Shown here piece by piece: positions 5,580 through 37,123 of a DNA stretch of 37,527 nucleotides. How positions within the stretch are numbered: the first letter of the stretch is position 1; each line of letters starts with the position of its first letter. The notes beneath the pieces are model-generated. The model saw only the letters and a list, made by a program, of their open reading frames with translations, searched no databases and was not told the DNA's origin. This DNA is from Candidatus Cloacimonadota bacterium (GTDB taxonomy: Bacteria > Cloacimonadota > Cloacimonadia > Cloacimonadales > Cloacimonadaceae), in contig JAJBAV010000028.1 in NCBI GenBank assembly GCA_020532085.1, positions 1 to 37,527 on the forward strand, in the 5' to 3' direction. The position numbers and the translations under genes were made by a program.

Positions 5580-8066
5580 ATGAGTGGTCAACACATTAAC
5601 GCAAACTGGCTCACGGTAAAGGAATACGCGGCCATTAAGGGGATCAGTGAGCGAGCGGTACGCAAAAACATAGCAGCTGGTAAATACGAGATTAGAGAGG
5701 TGCCGCACCCCTCCAGGAAAGATCAAGTATCTTACGAAATCTGGACCGCCGAACCAGAGTGCGGAACCAAAAGTGCGGAACCAGAGTGCGGAACTAAAAG
5801 TGCGGAACCAGAGTGCGGAACCAAAAGTGCGGAACCAGAGAGCGGAACCAAAAGTGCGGAACCAGAGTGCGGAACCAAAAGTGCGGAACCTGAGAGCGGA
5901 ACCAAAAGTGCGGAACCAGAGTGCGACAACCAGGATGAAACCTTGGGCGCGTGTGAGAGTTGTTATGCCAAAACGATGTGCCATAAAGCAGAGTGCTGTT
6001 ACGAGTGCGATGAATACAGCCACTGCAACAGCCACCAGTGCAAGTTAGCCTGGGCAGAGTCACAGCGCACGGGCAACGACTACCAGGACGTGATGGCCGG
6101 CTATCGGGATCATCGAACGAGCGCCGCGGGCGCCGTCATGGCCGAGGTAATGTGCGACGACCCCGCTCCGGAGGTGACAGAGGTTGTGAAACCTGCTCCG
6201 GGCAGAGTGGTTGAGTATGTTCCTTACCATAAGCTTGATGAGGCGCAGTTGTACGCGCTGCTGATGCAGGAGATCGAGCGGAGATTGCGGAGCGCGAGCA
6301 GCCGGGGGGCGTGTTGGGAGGAAATCACGGGCGCGTACAACGCCGGTGACCTGGTGCCTGAGCTGCGCAAGCTGCGGGGCTGTCGGAGCGAGCGGGGCCT
6401 GCGGCATTGGTGGCAGCGCTGGAGCGAGACGGGCGACATGTTTGAGCTGGTTCACAAGAATACGGCTCAGATCCGTGGGCGCAAGGTGACGCAGTTCGAG
6501 CAGGACTATTTGCTCAAGCATCTGCTTTCAGACAGCAAGGCAAGCATTGGCAGCTCGATCACGATGCTGAAGGACGAGGCGCGGGAGCTGGGGCTGGACA
6601 GCCCGAGCAGTGAGGCCACGCTCAAGCGCTGGTGCAACGACTGGGCGGCGGCGCATCCCGCGGTATGGGCGCAAGGGCGGCTCGGCGATAAGTATGTGAA
6701 GGACAACATCATAAAGAGCCTGATCCGCAACACAGACGACATCAAGTTTGGTGACGTGCTGGTGGGTGACGGCCATGTGATTGGCAACGACATCATCAAT
6801 CCGCTGACGGGCAAGCCAGCCAGGTTGACGATGATCATGTTTTACGACTGGGCCTCCAGATACCCGGTGGGGGCGAGCCTGGCCTACACAGAGGACAGCG
6901 TGCACATCCTCACGGCGCTCCGGAACGCGATATTGCAGCTGGAGTTTGTGCCCAAGTGCGTTTACCTGGATAACGGGCGGGCGTTCAAGAGCAAGCTGTT
7001 CACGCAGGCGCCGGAGGACCACGACCTGAGCGTTGAGCTGGCCGGGATACTGCCGCGGCTGGGGATCTACGCGCACTTTGCCGAGGCTTACAACGGCCGG
7101 AGCAAGGTGATCGAACGGTATTTCAAGACGATGCAGGAGCAGTGGGAGCGGTTCATGAGTGGTTTCCGGGGGAGCACGATAGCGGACAAGCCGGCACATT
7201 TGATGCGTAACGAGAAGTGGGCCAAGAAGATGTTTGAGGGCAAGCCCATGGAGTATGACGAGGCGCTGACGATGGCCTACTATTGGGTGCGCTACATGTA
7301 TGGCAACCGTCCCAACGCCCAGTTGAAGGGCCAGACACCCTACACCGTCTTCAGAGAGAGCGAGCGGCCGGCAGACCGGGCGGTGCAGATCCGCGAACTG
7401 GACATATTGATGCTGAAGGCGGAGCGCAAGCGGGTGCGTAAGGACGGGATCATGCTGATGGGCAACCGTTATTGGGCTCCTGAGCTGGTGGATCACGCGC
7501 TGCAGCCGGTGGTGATCCGGTATGATTACTGCGATCTGCGGCAGATAATGGTGTATGATGAGAGGAGTTGGCTGATCTGCGAGGCTGAGCTACGGGAGGG
7601 CGTGAACGGCATGGCCTTCTTGAGCGATAATCCATTGGCTTATCACGAGGTGAAAGCGGAGATCAAGGAAAACAAGGCCATCCACCGGATGATCCAGAAG
7701 ACGACGAAACGGACGGTGGATCGGGCCAAGGACGGCGTGGACCGCGAACTGGCCAAACACCAGGGGATTATTGAGCAGCGCAAGGCCGAGATCGAACAGC
7801 ACAATCCGCTGTTCAAAAATCCGCCCATGATGCCGCCCAGGAAGCCGAGGGCGGACGTGCATGACGACGTGGCGGCCCTGGAGAAGATCGCGCGCGAGGC
7901 TGAGAGCGAGGTGCCCGTGGTGATCGAGCTGGAGCAGGCTGTTGCCGCGGCGGCGCCGGCAATCGAGAAGACGATTGAGCTGGAGGACCTACTGGAAGAC
8001 GAGGGCAGCTTGGCCTCCACCGTGAGTTTCAAGGAAATGCAAAAAATCATTGGAATAGAGAGGTAA
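5580..8066 (+). CDS. MuA-like DDE transposase
   Basis: The 828-residue product starts at 5580, where AAGGAG is correctly spaced. Residues about 5-45 are a Mu-type helix-turn-helix (LTVKEYAAIKGISERAVRKNIAAGKY). Residues 57-115 are seven copies of an AEPECGTKS repeat. A Cys-rich segment follows (CESCYAKTMCHKAECCYECDEYSHC). The core holds the DDE triad: D397 (GDGHVIG), D464 (YLDNGRAF) and E512 (KVIERYF). The acidic, helical C-terminus is where MuA contacts MuB. It binds the terminal GGTCAC...TTGCAT sites and carries out transposition, used for both integration and replication. The Cys-rich insert is not part of standard MuA as I know it. Confidence 0.96.
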   Translation: MSGQHINANWLTVKEYAAIKGISERAVRKNIAAGKYEIREVPHPSRKDQVSYEIWTAEPECGTKSAEPECGTKSAEPECGTKSAEPESGTKSAEPECGTKSAEPESGTKSAEPECDNQDETLGACESCYAKTMCHKAECCYECDEYSHCNSHQCKLAWAESQRTGNDYQDVMAGYRDHRTSAAGAVMAEVMCDDPAPEVTEVVKPAPGRVVEYVPYHKLDEAQLYALLMQEIERRLRSASSRGACWEEITGAYNAGDLVPELRKLRGCRSERGLRHWWQRWSETGDMFELVHKNTAQIRGRKVTQFEQDYLLKHLLSDSKASIGSSITMLKDEARELGLDSPSSEATLKRWCNDWAAAHPAVWAQGRLGDKYVKDNIIKSLIRNTDDIKFGDVLVGDGHVIGNDIINPLTGKPARLTMIMFYDWASRYPVGASLAYTEDSVHILTALRNAILQLEFVPKCVYLDNGRAFKSKLFTQAPEDHDLSVELAGILPRLGIYAHFAEAYNGRSKVIERYFKTMQEQWERFMSGFRGSTIADKPAHLMRNEKWAKKMFEGKPMEYDEALTMAYYWVRYMYGNRPNAQLKGQTPYTVFRESERPADRAVQIRELDILMLKAERKRVRKDGIMLMGNRYWAPELVDHALQPVVIRYDYCDLRQIMVYDERSWLICEAELREGVNGMAFLSDNPLAYHEVKAEIKENKAIHRMIQKTTKRTVDRAKDGVDRELAKHQGIIEQRKAEIEQHNPLFKNPPMMPPRKPRADVHDDVAALEKIAREAESEVPVVIELEQAVAAAAPAIEKTIELEDLLEDEGSLASTVSFKEMQKIIGIER
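5748..5924 (+). repeat. 27-bp tandem repeats inside the transposase gene
   Basis: Six full and one partial 27-bp units start at 5748, 5775, 5802, 5829, 5856, 5883 and 5910. Each contains two near-identical halves built on AGTGCGGAACCA, so the DNA period is 13-14 bp. Units differ mainly by a TGC/AGC (Cys/Ser) change. The array occupies the same linker position as the motif cluster in the second element's transposase. Confidence 0.9.
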
Positions 8067-30612: not shown

Positions 30613-31274
30613 TCCCCATTACTCCCACCACCATCCGCCTTTGCCGTGTCAATCCGGACGCCTCTGCCGCCTATCTCCGCTTTGACGCCACCCGCGTGGA
30701 TTACACCCCCACCAAGCGCTACTCAGTGGAAAAGCCCAACGCCTTTGATCCCTCTTTCATTCACCGCCGCGGACCCTGGTTCGAGCATCTCGTCGACGCC
30801 ACATTTATCCTCACGGCAGCCGAATACTCCACCCTCCTAAGCTTCCTCACCGCCCCCGGCCAGCTCTACATTGAGTTCACCTACCAGGGCACCGGCCTTC
30901 TCCAATTCCCCGTCACCTGTGAGGCCCTGCCGCCCCTCCCCGATGATCTCCGCGAATACACTGCCGAAACCACCGCCCGCTTTCGCGCCGCTTGGGCCGA
31001 CGCCCCCGAGTTCATCGACTTCGACAACGTCGATCGCCTCTTTTCTTTTGCCCTCTCCGTGCCAGCCCCCACGGACGCAGTTCGCCTTTACCTGGATGAA
31101 GGGGATATGGCCTCCCTCTCCGTCCGCGCCGCCGCCGACGCAGTTCGCCTTTACCTGGATGAAGGGGATATGGCCTCCCTCTCCGTCCGCGCCGCCGCCG
31201 ACGCAGTTCGCCTTTACCTGGACGAAGGCGAGATGGCTTCCCTCTCCGTCCCTGCCCCCACCGATCCCGAATAA
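30609..31274 (+). CDS. Tail-tip protein, paralogue 2 with repeat tail
   Basis: The 221-residue product overlaps the previous stop by 4 bp. Residues 1-150 are paralogous to the 30169 gene. A C-terminal extension holds three copies of a 21-residue unit starting DAVRLYLDEGDMASLSV. The extension is absent in paralogue 1 and looks like a recent expansion. Confidence 0.7.
   Translation: MIPITPTTIRLCRVNPDASAAYLRFDATRVDYTPTKRYSVEKPNAFDPSFIHRRGPWFEHLVDATFILTAAEYSTLLSFLTAPGQLYIEFTYQGTGLLQFPVTCEALPPLPDDLREYTAETTARFRAAWADAPEFIDFDNVDRLFSFALSVPAPTDAVRLYLDEGDMASLSVRAAADAVRLYLDEGDMASLSVRAAADAVRLYLDEGEMASLSVPAPTDPE
31074..31262 (+). repeat. 63-bp tandem repeat, three copies
   Basis: Units at 31074-31136, 31137-31199 and 31200-31262. 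The first two are almost identical; the third differs at several bases (GACGAAGGCGAG for GATGAAGGGGAT). They keep the frame of the tail-tip gene, so copy-number change would only vary protein length. Confidence 0.9.
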
Positions 31275-32426: not shown

Positions 32427-32580
32427 TATGCAAGAATGGTGACCTAAATTGCAAGAATCGTGACCTCGTGCCTATAGCTGCAGATGACAAAAATGCAGCT
32501 GTAGGCGGAGCTGTATCTATGGGAAAAACCCTTTATGCAAGAATGGTGACCTTGTATGCAAGAATAAGTGACCTCTTACA
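32427..32580 (+). promoter_or_regulatory. Right-end transposase binding sites
   Basis: Inverted copies of the left-end site, TATGCAAGAATNGTGACC type, occur at 32427-32444, 32449-32465, 32531-32551 and 32555-32573. The last lies 7 bp from the terminal CA at 32580. Two closely spaced pairs with a 65-bp gap mirror the left arrangement. Confidence 0.85.
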
Positions 32581-32855
32581 AGTTTCTCCTCTGTTGTGTA
32601 TGCTCCCAAACCTGATACCGCCACGTTGCGCGCGCAGTTGGCGCATAACAGGTAATAGCGGATGCTGTCCTCTTCGCGCCTGATCAGTTTGTCCAGTTCC
32701 GACTTCATCTGGGGGAATTGCCGTTCGTTCAGAAGGCATTCGAACACGCTTTTTTGCACTCGCTTTCCGTATTTGAGAAGGCATTTTACAGCCTGACGCC
32801 TGATCTTGTTTGAGACTATGTCAAAGCAAACCAGGTATAGTTTCATGTCGGCCAT
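32517..32855 (-). CDS. cas2: Cas2, C-terminus replaced by phage-end sequence
   Basis: The 112-codon frame has the Cas2 ferredoxin-like fold pattern: KLYLVCFDIVSNKIRRQAVKCLLKYGKRVQKSVFECLLNERQFPQMKSELDKLI, with the conserved Asp12 (FDI). SIRYYLLC follows. Native sequence ends at Leu92 (EEKL). After that, 20 residues beginning VRGHLF are encoded by the right end of the prophage. Without the insertion the gene reads IIV-stop, a normal 95-residue Cas2. Cas2 pairs with Cas1 to insert spacers, and the C-terminal strand of Cas2 contacts Cas1 in the E. coli complex. The new tail could impair assembly, though the fold core is complete. Confidence 0.93.
   Translation of the reverse strand: MADMKLYLVCFDIVSNKIRRQAVKCLLKYGKRVQKSVFECLLNERQFPQMKSELDKLIRREEDSIRYYLLCANCARNVAVSGLGAYTTEEKLVRGHLFLHTRSPFLHKGFFP
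32581..32585. repeat. Right 5-bp target-site duplication (AGTTT)
   Basis: These five bases directly follow the TTACA end of the prophage and match 2621-2625. They fall inside codons K-L of cas2. Confidence 0.9.
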
Positions 32856-32887: not shown

Positions 32888-33934
32888 TTATGTCCAGGCA
32901 AAGGGGCTGTAATCTTTCTTTTTCTGACAATGCGCGGCTAGTTTTCTGGCTTGGAGAAGGAAAATGTCTTTCAGGCTCCAATCCCCCGCAGGTTGTTCCA
33001 AAGTAAAACGGGAGTTAACCATTTTGGCAAAGGATGTGATCACTATCTTCATGCCATCCTGATTAAGGGAGACCGGCAGAAGTCGAGTACCGGGATCTAA
33101 GCCATCCTCCTCTGCTTCGTCATCAGGCAAAGCGTTGTAAACAAAGTGTCCGGGTCTAATTTCTTTCCGGTTGATGATGGTGATGATCAGGTTGTCGACA
33201 AGTGGCCGGAATTCTTCCATCAGGTCCAATACGAGTGACTGCCTGCCATAGGCGATATCATGCAAAGCTCCGAAATAGGGGTCCAATCCACAAACATAAG
33301 TAGCCCCCATTACCTGGTTCATCAGGAAAGTGTAACCCAGAGACAGCAGGGCGTTGACTTCATCGCGGGGAGGGCGTCTGTTGCGGCCTGAAAAGGAGAA
33401 TCCCTCATTTGTTATCAGGACGGGGAAGGCGGTAAAATAGTTTTTTGCAGCTATTCCTTCATACCCCCGGATGCTGTCCAGGTCAATTGAGGCTCCGGTA
33501 AGCCTCTCAATGATACCCTGATTCCTAAGGATGGCCTCCGAGATCAACATGTTTTTGTTGCGTTTGAGTCTCCTGCCGAGGTGCTCCTGCATGTTGTCCA
33601 GTTTCCCCTTAATGTAGGTGGCGGCAAGTTGTTCCCGGTTAGTCTGGGAATCCAGGAACTGGTACTGAGCCACTCTCAATTGAACGTTCTTGCCGAATTC
33701 GCCCACCAGCCGGCCTTTGAATTTTCCGTAATAGGAAAGAAATACTGTGTCGATCCTGTGCTTGAGGAGATAGGTCAAGACCGGAGTGGTAAGGGTTATG
33801 TTGCCCACGATGATCATTTGTGAAATGTCTTTGGTATGAAACCAGCGCAGGAGATGGAATCCCTTGAAAACATGAAGCCTGTCCCCCCGTTTGCAAACAG
33901 AGGCTCCCTGATCGGCAATGTAAACAACTGACAT
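32888..33934 (-). CDS. cas1: Cas1 integrase
   Basis: The 348-residue product has the Cas1 signature residues: E159 (IRGYEGIAAKNYF), H225 (GLDPYFGALHDIAYGRQSLVLDL), and D237 with E240 (LVLDLMEEFRPLVDNLI) as metal ligands. The N-terminal beta domain (VVYIADQGASVCKRGDRLHVF) is present. Length is normal. It makes the Cas1-Cas2 integration complex that adds spacers next to the leader. It lies 32 bp before cas2 and 2 bp after the TPR gene, clearly in one operon. Confidence 0.97.
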   Translation of the reverse strand: MSVVYIADQGASVCKRGDRLHVFKGFHLLRWFHTKDISQMIIVGNITLTTPVLTYLLKHRIDTVFLSYYGKFKGRLVGEFGKNVQLRVAQYQFLDSQTNREQLAATYIKGKLDNMQEHLGRRLKRNKNMLISEAILRNQGIIERLTGASIDLDSIRGYEGIAAKNYFTAFPVLITNEGFSFSGRNRRPPRDEVNALLSLGYTFLMNQVMGATYVCGLDPYFGALHDIAYGRQSLVLDLMEEFRPLVDNLIITIINRKEIRPGHFVYNALPDDEAEEDGLDPGTRLLPVSLNQDGMKIVITSFAKMVNSRFTLEQPAGDWSLKDIFLLQARKLAAHCQKKKDYSPFAWT

Positions 33935-33936
33935 AC

Positions 33937-35226
33937 TCAGGCCGGGCGGATATTGACCGCTTTTTGGCTTTCCCGCTGTTTTTGAGGATCATAAGAAGCC
34001 TGGAGATGGAATCTGACAGCAAGCCCCGCAGCCAGCTTCGCGGTGGACATCCTGCAATCCCTGACCCGGAAATAGTATGAAGACTTCCCCGACAGGATGA
34101 AGCCGGCTTTACCATGCGGCAGTAGCTTGCCTATCTTTCCTGTCAACCAAGGGGTATCACGGTGGATCATATCATCCAAAGCATCCATGATCGGGCCACG
34201 CAGCGCCATAAAATGGGGCAGCGTATCCAAGGAGATGTTGTGGTCTGTTAACTCCCGCAACAGATTTTGATCGATCTTCCAGCCTTTGAATTTGCGGATG
34301 GAGGCACTCAGCTTTAACAAGGCCAGGGCAAGGTCGAACTGCTTCTCCCGGGAGACAATCTGCCTCAACAACTCCCAGAGGTGGATCTTGTTCTCGGTGT
34401 CCCCGAAAGACTGAGCGGCCCGGACAGCAAGGCTTAGCGCCTGGCTGTGACGCTTCAGCTTGAATGCCACTTCGGCGGCCTCATGCAGCAGGAACCAATC
34501 CTGCTTTATCTTGATGATGCTCTCAAACATTTCCATGGCCTGATCTAGGTCTTCCAGCCGGAAATGGCAGAGGGCTTTCCGGCGCAGTAACCAGATCCCA
34601 TTCCCCGATGAAAGTTGAATCCCGTTTTCCAGGGTTTCGCCGCACAATCTCAGGCATTCGGAATAGTCGCCAGACGAATACAGCGCCCTGGTAAGGATGG
34701 AGGTGTATTGTTCCCTTGCTGAGGGCAAATCCTTGCCTCCGTTGGGCGATGGGCAGGGCTCTGGATTGAGCATGAAGGGGTCCAATAACCGACAGAGTTG
34801 TATCACAAACACTGGGGGGAATTCAGGATGTTTTTTGAGCAGGGCAAAAACGCTTAAGGGCAGGGGATGAAGACCCTGTCTTTGAGGAAAAATAGCTTCC
34901 ATCTTTTCCAGATGCTCCACCGCGTCAGCTCCGCCTAACTGGCCTGCTCCCTTGAAATAGTGGAAATACATGCACCAGGCAGTGTTCTGGCGGATGCCAT
35001 CCCAGACGCCCGGCATAGCGCAAGCCTTGAGACCCAGCTCGATCGCCCGAGGATAATCTCCGGATTTATTCAGGGTATACAATAGCTTGTAAACTAGGGG
35101 AAAATCCCCATTGTCGCCTGATTCGCTGTACAGCTTCGAAAGAAGCTCGGCCGCCGCGGTTGGATTACCGCTGTTCGTAAGTTCCTCAGCTTGGAAGAAT
35201 AGCTCTTTGCGTTGATTAAGGTTCAT
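33937..35226 (-). CDS. TPR-repeat protein with C-terminal cold-shock-like domain, adaptation-module partner
   Basis: The 429-residue product consists of helical TPR-like repeats from residue about 5 to 300 (for example NPTAAAELLSKLYSESGDNGDFPLVYKLLYTLNKSGDYPRAIELGLKA). The last 75 residues read like a cold-shock/OB domain: GKIGKLLPHGKAGFIL, YYFRVRDCR, LAAGLAVRFHL, YDPQKQ, AVNI. That matches G.V......GFI / F / L..G..V.F.. / A..V, though the aromatic RNP positions are only partly kept. A single-strand nucleic acid binding role beside the primase and Cas1-Cas2 is inferred. It lies 2 bp from cas1 and 22 bp from the primase gene. Confidence 0.75.
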   Translation of the reverse strand: MNLNQRKELFFQAEELTNSGNPTAAAELLSKLYSESGDNGDFPLVYKLLYTLNKSGDYPRAIELGLKACAMPGVWDGIRQNTAWCMYFHYFKGAGQLGGADAVEHLEKMEAIFPQRQGLHPLPLSVFALLKKHPEFPPVFVIQLCRLLDPFMLNPEPCPSPNGGKDLPSAREQYTSILTRALYSSGDYSECLRLCGETLENGIQLSSGNGIWLLRRKALCHFRLEDLDQAMEMFESIIKIKQDWFLLHEAAEVAFKLKRHSQALSLAVRAAQSFGDTENKIHLWELLRQIVSREKQFDLALALLKLSASIRKFKGWKIDQNLLRELTDHNISLDTLPHFMALRGPIMDALDDMIHRDTPWLTGKIGKLLPHGKAGFILSGKSSYYFRVRDCRMSTAKLAAGLAVRFHLQASYDPQKQRESQKAVNIRPA

Positions 35227-35248: not shown

Positions 35249-37123
35249 CTATTTAAGTTTAAGCACCAATGAAGCATCATCAGGTTTGCCCGATCTGGTC
35301 AGAACTCCATAGGGCGTTGTTATCGCATCTACTCCGGCATCGGCAAACGCAGTCAGGATATCTGTTTCAGCCTCGCTTAACCGTTCTGAGAGAGTTTGGC
35401 TGTCTTTCTTCAACTTCAGATAGTTTGAGACCATTTCTCTCAGCTTCAGATCGTTTTCCCGCAACGGCGCGGGCCTGCGGTCTTCCAACTGCTTCAAATG
35501 TAACAAAGGAGTGGGATACATTGCTTGCGCGTCGCCAAATTCGCAGTTACATGTCCCTTTTTCGAGCAGATCCCCCAGCAGCAAACGGATCTTGGGGCAG
35601 CCCATCGAGTTGCCCCGGAAGGCCGAGCGCATGAGGTCCCGGGAATCATAGCCGGGTAATCTGCGCAGTAGGGAATTGACGATTGCCGGGCCGTTTTTCA
35701 GATATCCGCAAGTATAGCGCAGCACGTTTTTCTGTCCCGCTGTCAGTTCACTCCTGCTTTGAACCATGCTGTCTAGCTTCCAAAGGGCTTGGCAGTTTTC
35801 TTTGAGGCAAAGCCATTCGGGGTCTGTTTCCGGGTCCGCCCCAATCTCGATTGCGTCCTCCGTTCTACCGTCTTCTTGCCCCGGTTCTGCGGAAACTGAA
35901 ACATTAACAATGTCCGGATCCAAAGAATACAGCGCCGAAAGGAACGTGGAAGCTGAAACTTTGTTGGCGTTCCGCACAAAATCCTGAAAGCCAATCAGCT
36001 TGCCATCTTCGTCGAGCATAGAACTTGGCAGGCCCGTCAAGCGATGGATGCCGTAAGGCAGTTTAACTAGGTTGCCATAGTTTGCCGCTGAAGCGCGGGT
36101 CTGTTTGGGGAATATCTCTATGCCCAGCGGCAGGTTTTCCAGACTCACCTGTGCCGCTATCCTCTGAGCCAGGCTCCTGGCGAATTTTGCGGAAACCGGT
36201 TCCTCCAGCAGGATCCAGATATGATAGCCTTTGTAGCCGCTGAATTCCAGATTCATCTCCAAACCATAAGTCCGCAGCACGGCGCGGAAATTGGATGTAA
36301 CCCTCTGGTAGCCGTTCTCCAGCCAAAGCCGGAAATCCTGGTCATGCAAGTCATCTAGGTGCGACTTGTTAAGATCAAGGTCAAAGACGATCCAGTTTAC
36401 CCGGTTGGCCAGGTCCAGTTGATACACGCCGATCGTCTGGATGCCGAGTAGGTGGTTGCGTAAGTGGTTTATGTTAAGGGGTTCATGCACTGGATTGTAG
36501 CCGTGTTTTCCGTCGTCGGAGATCCACTGGCGGGCATGGCAGTTTTCTCTGCCCCGGAAGACGCGGAGCATTGTCAGCAGATCCGCCTCGGAAAAATCCG
36601 AAGTTTGCGCGTCATCTCCGGGGTTAGATTCAGCTGCTGATCTGTCTGCTGATGGCAATAACACCCCGTTTGCTGCCGCTAGTTCCTCCAATTTGCCTGC
36701 CTGTTCCCGGTCGTCATTGTCCCGGCAATGCTTCCGGCAATCAAGATAATAGGGCCGATGGTCCGGGAAGGACTCCAGGCGAGAATTGATAAATTCAAGA
36801 TAATCTGAGGCAACATGATGGAGTCTGAGTATCCTTGCCTTCTGCAAGGCGGCGGAATGGTTTTTAGGATCTTCCGAGAGAATGTCAGACAATTGGGCAA
36901 GCGCTTCGTCTATACGCCCCAGCATAAGTAACCAGCGAGCCAATTCCTCTTTTTCCGCGCCATCAAGGTCCGCAAGGTTTTGGGCCACACTGCAGGCTTG
37001 GCCAGCGTACTCCAAATCCTCAGAGAGAAAACTGCGGTTGAACCGGACCCGGCACTCGTGAAAATCGCTCGGAAGCGTGCCGGCCTGTGTACCTTGGTTT
37101 AACAACATATTGGGATTTGTCAT
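35249..37123 (-). CDS. CRISPR-associated primase-polymerase (CAPP), TPR plus AEP fusion
   Basis: In the 624-residue product, residues about 35-150 are TPR-like helices (EEELARWLLMLGRIDEALAQLSDILSEDP). Residues about 180-400 are an archaeo-eukaryotic primase: motif I VFDLDLN (D248, D250), motif II SGYKGYHIW (H301), and IEIFPKQ plus VKLPYGIHR (K354) as motif III. Residues about 436-545 hold C439, C444, C472, C509, C525 and C527 (ENC, YTC, MGCPKIR, GTCNCEF, YPTPLLH), likely a PriCT/Fe-S or zinc module. A coiled tail ends it. Prim-pols of this type next to Cas1-Cas2 are thought to make or process DNA for spacer capture. TAGGAGG precedes the ATG; it is the first gene of the operon. Confidence 0.9.
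   Translation of the reverse strand: MTNPNMLLNQGTQAGTLPSDFHECRVRFNRSFLSEDLEYAGQACSVAQNLADLDGAEKEELARWLLMLGRIDEALAQLSDILSEDPKNHSAALQKARILRLHHVASDYLEFINSRLESFPDHRPYYLDCRKHCRDNDDREQAGKLEELAAANGVLLPSADRSAAESNPGDDAQTSDFSEADLLTMLRVFRGRENCHARQWISDDGKHGYNPVHEPLNINHLRNHLLGIQTIGVYQLDLANRVNWIVFDLDLNKSHLDDLHDQDFRLWLENGYQRVTSNFRAVLRTYGLEMNLEFSGYKGYHIWILLEEPVSAKFARSLAQRIAAQVSLENLPLGIEIFPKQTRASAANYGNLVKLPYGIHRLTGLPSSMLDEDGKLIGFQDFVRNANKVSASTFLSALYSLDPDIVNVSVSAEPGQEDGRTEDAIEIGADPETDPEWLCLKENCQALWKLDSMVQSRSELTAGQKNVLRYTCGYLKNGPAIVNSLLRRLPGYDSRDLMRSAFRGNSMGCPKIRLLLGDLLEKGTCNCEFGDAQAMYPTPLLHLKQLEDRRPAPLRENDLKLREMVSNYLKLKKDSQTLSERLSEAETDILTAFADAGVDAITTPYGVLTRSGKPDDASLVLKLK

Follow-up and report, generated by a model that had tools for sequence, protein, structure and literature searches.

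The window, by which we mean the whole stretch of 37,527 nucleotides analysed here, carries on its reverse strand a CRISPR-associated primase-polymerase (CAPP) gene of type A1 (35249–37123), a gene for a TPR superhelix protein with a C-terminal cold-shock (OB-fold) domain, termed TPR-CSD below (33937–35226), cas1 (32888–33934; PF01867, 2.4e-82; TIGR00287, 237.8 bits against a cut-off of 71.7) and cas2 (32517–32855), together with a CRISPR array (1692–2310) and, between cas1 and the array, a Mu-like prophage of 29,955 bp (2626–32580) lying in the last codons of cas2. The array is made up of nine 37-nt repeats, of which the first is degenerate, and 8 spacers of 34–40 nt, and the segment between the array and the cas2 stop (2311–2611) is, from its position, presumed to be the leader. 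The two adjacent repeat-spacer units nearest to this presumed leader (2130–2273) are identical, 72 nt each, and represent a duplicated spacer. The spacers displayed no match to the prophage beyond chance length, and an exact match in IMG/VR was absent for the two spacers compared with it.

CAPPs are CRISPR-specific DNA polymerases, and the family aids the storage of CRISPR memory. The CAPP open reading frame of the window encodes 624 amino acids from an ATG start without internal stops, and its protein passes the curated NCBIfam model NF040561 (CRISPR-associated primase-polymerase type A1) with 281.9 bits, the cut-off being 200 bits, and matches the PADLOC PrimPol "adaptation polymerase" model at 7.5e-71, so that the identification made in a preliminary description of this DNA was borne out. 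Its domains comprise TPR repeats (about residues 31–143), an AEP/Prim-Pol domain (186–389; PF22548, AEP-TOTE, 2.2e-32), a four-cysteine module (about 440–530) and a Gam/Gp157-like tail (563–623), and the PDB search retrieved the Marinitoga CAPP domain, whose structure is solved (7nqd/7nqf), at about 4e-30. The three AEP motifs were correctly placed and described as intact in the preliminary description, namely DLD from residue 248 (D248/D250), SGYKGYH from residue 295 (H301) and KLPYG from residue 354; residues D248, D250, S295, G296, K298, G299, H301, K354, P356 and G358 are identical across eight bacterial CAPP homologues, each from a different genome. Two features had been overlooked there: E336 (IEIFPKQ), which is invariant and is likely the third catalytic acid, and the Mu_Gam/Gp157-TOTE domain PF22709 at residues 563–623, which is found in 8/8 homologues and also in both archaeal CAPPs. 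The N-terminal TPR domain claimed earlier also held, with one repeat above the Pfam cut-off and the family profile aligning with designed TPR proteins over residues 31–143 (3.4e-17), together indicating a real domain of about three repeats. Judged from the sequence, the active site is intact, and the protein is a well-preserved, ordinary member of the known CAPP family, of low novelty in itself.

The order CAPP, TPR-CSD, cas1 was observed in seven genomes of the family (the window and six others), the intergenic distances ranging from −7 to +22 bp; cas2 then follows in six relatives, found by ORF search in L035, L037, L038, L049 and L050 and by tblastn in L036, and CRISPR repeats lie close to most of these loci. 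In L035, a member of the same genus, genes for Cas6-like, Csm1/Cas10, Csm2, Csm3, Csm5 and CARF-type proteins stand immediately upstream of CAPP, a gene content by which this system is assigned to type III-A. CAPP genes directly beside cas1 without a TPR-CSD gene were found in L040 and in two archaeal genomes (L131 and L102). The Pfam names of the AEP and Gam-like domains derive from TOTE systems, and among viral contigs and plasmids the distant CAPP relatives are proteins of greater size, some of them annotated as helicases, that lack the four-cysteine module, the similarity of the plasmid relatives being confined to the AEP domain; the window protein might accordingly be read as a TOTE-type conflict-system primase that adjoins cas1 by accident. 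This reading, already disfavoured, is highly improbable, given that the type A1 model is passed and that adjacency to cas1 recurs in the seven family genomes, in L040 and in the two archaeal genomes.

The neighbouring gene had been said to encode TPR repeats as well, and a TPR superhelix was indeed seen in its AlphaFold2 model (pLDDT 91), followed by a five-strand C-terminal barrel. A PDB search with the profile of this C-terminal part retrieved the UNR cold-shock domain (4e-5) and also bacterial cold-shock proteins, and the PADLOC model PDLC01170 (TPR repeats containing protein fused to cold shock-like domain) matches residues 71–427 at 9.5e-45, while the CSD Pfam model itself matches one member of the TPR-CSD family only, below its cut-off; the domain at residues 361–428 has a cold-shock fold. 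The PADLOC entry shares with TPR-CSD the TPR repeats and the cold shock-like OB-fold, and differs in being a catalogue entry for which no functional test was found; both CAPP and TPR-CSD are thus already catalogued as CRISPR-linked, by NCBIfam and PADLOC. BLAST reported no similarity between the two proteins, and no relatives of TPR-CSD were found in viral contigs. The existence of CAPPs beside cas1 without this neighbour indicates that the partner is not obligatory. At those CAPP loci beyond the family that were examined, the TPR-CSD gene is missing, and weaker relatives lie away from cas genes, near EF-Tu and rpoB in L039 and near queH and fapA in L041, so that TPR-CSD looks like a family-specific recruitment. 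The preliminary description had the two proteins interacting through their TPR repeats; cooperation between CAPP and TPR-CSD is supported by gene order only, a direct TPR-TPR contact being a conjecture, and the position of the gene between CAPP and cas1 makes it a concrete candidate for bringing single-stranded substrates to CAPP.

Differential conservation was observed for the cysteines of the CAPP C-terminal part. The preliminary description had proposed a six-cysteine module with a metal or Fe-S site as in primase large subunits; six cysteines are present within residues 439–527 (C439, C444, C472, C509, C525 and C527), but the conserved ones number four, since C472 is unique to the window protein and C439 is common only to the nearest relative, L035, whereas C444, C509, C525 and C527 are invariant in the eight bacterial homologues and the same four recur in the two archaeal CAPPs added for this comparison (ten in total). 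The four-cysteine pattern resembles the Fe-S domain of archaeal PriL, with which the CAPP module shares four conserved cysteines, a helical module tied to AEP and a collinear alignment, and from which it differs in its last two cysteines, spaced as C-x-C. When the CAPP C-terminal profile with the archaeal CAPPs added was compared by hhalign with 30 archaeal PriL proteins, 78 columns aligned collinearly and C509 was paired with the PriL SC cysteine, at P = 0.035 and a probability of 1.5%; among column-permuted decoys 11/200 reached the real score and 0/200 reached its 78-column span. The eight CAPPs alone gave a suggestive but not significant hhalign match to PriL, PriL homology was not significant in the PDB sequence-profile search, and Foldseek with the AlphaFold2 model of the CAPP C-terminal part (pLDDT 69, medium confidence) returned no match. 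In the literature the CAPP C-terminal domain has been modelled in the role of Pri2 (primase large subunit)/PriX, and the catalytic core primes in vitro without it (PMC10345425). Homology to the PriL Fe-S domain is accordingly plausible but unproven, none of the tests run having reached significance. That the four cysteines form a structural zinc site instead of a PriL-like Fe-S cluster is possible, with the odds somewhat against it: the C-x15-C-x-C end of the module is unlike the last two cysteines of PriL, and the profile statistics, the decoys that equal the real score and the absent Foldseek match point the same way, whereas the 78-column span, the pairing of C509 and the published modelling speak for the PriL-like cluster. 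The four strictly conserved cysteines represent a candidate metal site that can be tested. No relatives of the C-terminal domain were found in phage records.

The prophage at 2626–32580 has TG...CA ends and terminal inverted repeats, and is flanked by the target-site duplication AGTTT (left copy 2621–2625, right copy 32581–32585). It encodes a MuA-type DDE transposase, a MuB-like ATPase, terminase, portal, tape measure, head protease and repressor, and its GC content is 57% compared with 50% in the flanks. It thus shares with transposable Mu-type phages the MuA-type transposase, the MuB-like ATPase, the TG...CA ends and the 5-bp duplication, which marks it as a Mu-like phage, and differs from the named ones in that its transposase is <30% identical to theirs over about half its length; one IMG/VR contig encodes a transposase 71% identical to it. 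Two repetitive segments were also seen within the prophage, 27-bp tandem repeats (GCGGAACCAGAG...) at 5748–5936 in the transposase gene, encoding a repetitive stretch, and three 63-bp-spaced repeats at 31051–31264 in a late gene. Joining the empty site restores a cas2 of 95 amino acids ending in EEKLIIV, whereas the current reading has 112 amino acids, the last 20 of them from the prophage end in place of the conserved C-terminal IIV; the Cas2 proteins of relatives end in LIII, LIIV, LIVL or close variants. The prophage has probably damaged cas2, and represents a natural case of a phage within CRISPR acquisition genes.

Csm1, Csm3, Cmr2 and the Cas10 of L035 were not found in the genome of the window itself (99.2% complete, 98 contigs). 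Taken with the altered cas2, the lack of Cas10 and Csm3 in so complete an assembly suggests that the memory-forming system is probably crippled, and the spacer-acquisition system of the window is probably defective at present. The operon might then be a decaying remnant, in which CAPP is intact only through the recency of the damage and plays no part in acquiring spacers at present, and the array, short and with a repeated spacer, would fit such decay. Also in keeping with it is L042, of the same genus, where an in-frame fusion joins the N-terminal part of CAPP, up to and including motif I, to the C-terminal part of Cas2 (L042:734–1633); this looks like a deletion of the remaining operon and could also be a misassembly. 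On the other side, none of CAPP, TPR-CSD and cas1 is truncated and their motifs are intact, and the loss in cas2 is limited to three conserved residues. The contig, moreover, extends only 404 bp beyond the CAPP start on the upstream side, just where L035 has its effector genes, so that such genes could lie in an assembly gap. We place the reading of a decaying remnant just short of an even chance.

The reading preferred for CAPP, with a probability of roughly 0.87, is that of a type A1 primase-polymerase from an operon for spacer acquisition linked to type III (CAPP, TPR-CSD, cas1, cas2, array), making or completing prespacers. Its basis is the pass of NF040561, the PADLOC match, the invariant catalytic residues, the conserved operon, the nearby repeats and the effectors of L035, while the altered cas2 C-terminus and the missing Csm1, Csm3 and Cmr2 count against a working operon, which may be in decay. 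The lack of a TPR-CSD neighbour at the CAPP loci studied in genomes outside the family also weighs against this reading. The Marinitoga CAPP has published primase, polymerase and strand-displacement activities and Cas1 binding, and yeast two-hybrid and pull-down experiments indicated that the TPR-bearing part of CAPP binds itself and that CAPP binds Cas1 and Ago (PMC8211822). By analogy with this biochemistry, the window CAPP would most likely prime on or extend single-stranded DNA fragments to yield double-stranded prespacers, and/or fill gaps after integration, and would pass prespacer DNA to Cas1-Cas2. The TPR parts may hold the complex together through partner contact, TPR-CSD would probably present single-stranded nucleic acid to CAPP through its cold-shock domain, the four-cysteine module probably binds a metal or an Fe-S cluster and would touch the primer 5' end as in PriL, and the Gam-like tail probably helps the protein to dimerise or to bind ends. 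A more specific proposal, that TPR-CSD is a dedicated third acquisition factor in the family, delivering ssRNA or ssDNA to CAPP, and that the four-cysteine module is a fused PriL-like initiation domain, is rather unlikely; if the delivery part were true, single-stranded nucleic acid of invaders could serve for the priming of spacers.

The closest described counterparts are CAPP-TPR proteins (CAPP_A, type A1), MpCAPP of Marinitoga piezophila and MsCAPP of Marinitoga sp. 1137 (PMC8211822; PDB 7nqd, 7nqf, 7p9j, 7qaz), which share with the window protein the order TPR, AEP and cysteine-bearing C-terminal domain, the cas1 neighbour and the catalytic motifs. The window differs in the TPR-CSD gene between CAPP and cas1, in the interrupted cas2 and in that no Ago gene was observed beside CAPP. 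An operon with cas1 and cas2 is present, cas1 being intact and the 3' end of cas2 being prophage DNA; Cas10 with Csm or Cmr genes was not found in the window's assembly and occurs beside CAPP in L035. The preliminary description thus holds in outline and errs in some details, and the points worth keeping are the less usual arrangement of a prophage in cas2 and the consistent TPR-CSD partner. Further gene arrangements were observed among the relatives, such as the archaeal CAPP of 942 amino acids at L102:270–3098, which combines a reverse transcriptase, TPR, AEP, four cysteines and a Gam-like tail and adjoins cas1; and, upstream of CAPP on the opposite strand at L037:1575–7227, genes for a CARF-adenosine deaminase and a SAVED protein together with two genes with PADLOC HTH and CRISPR-T matches.
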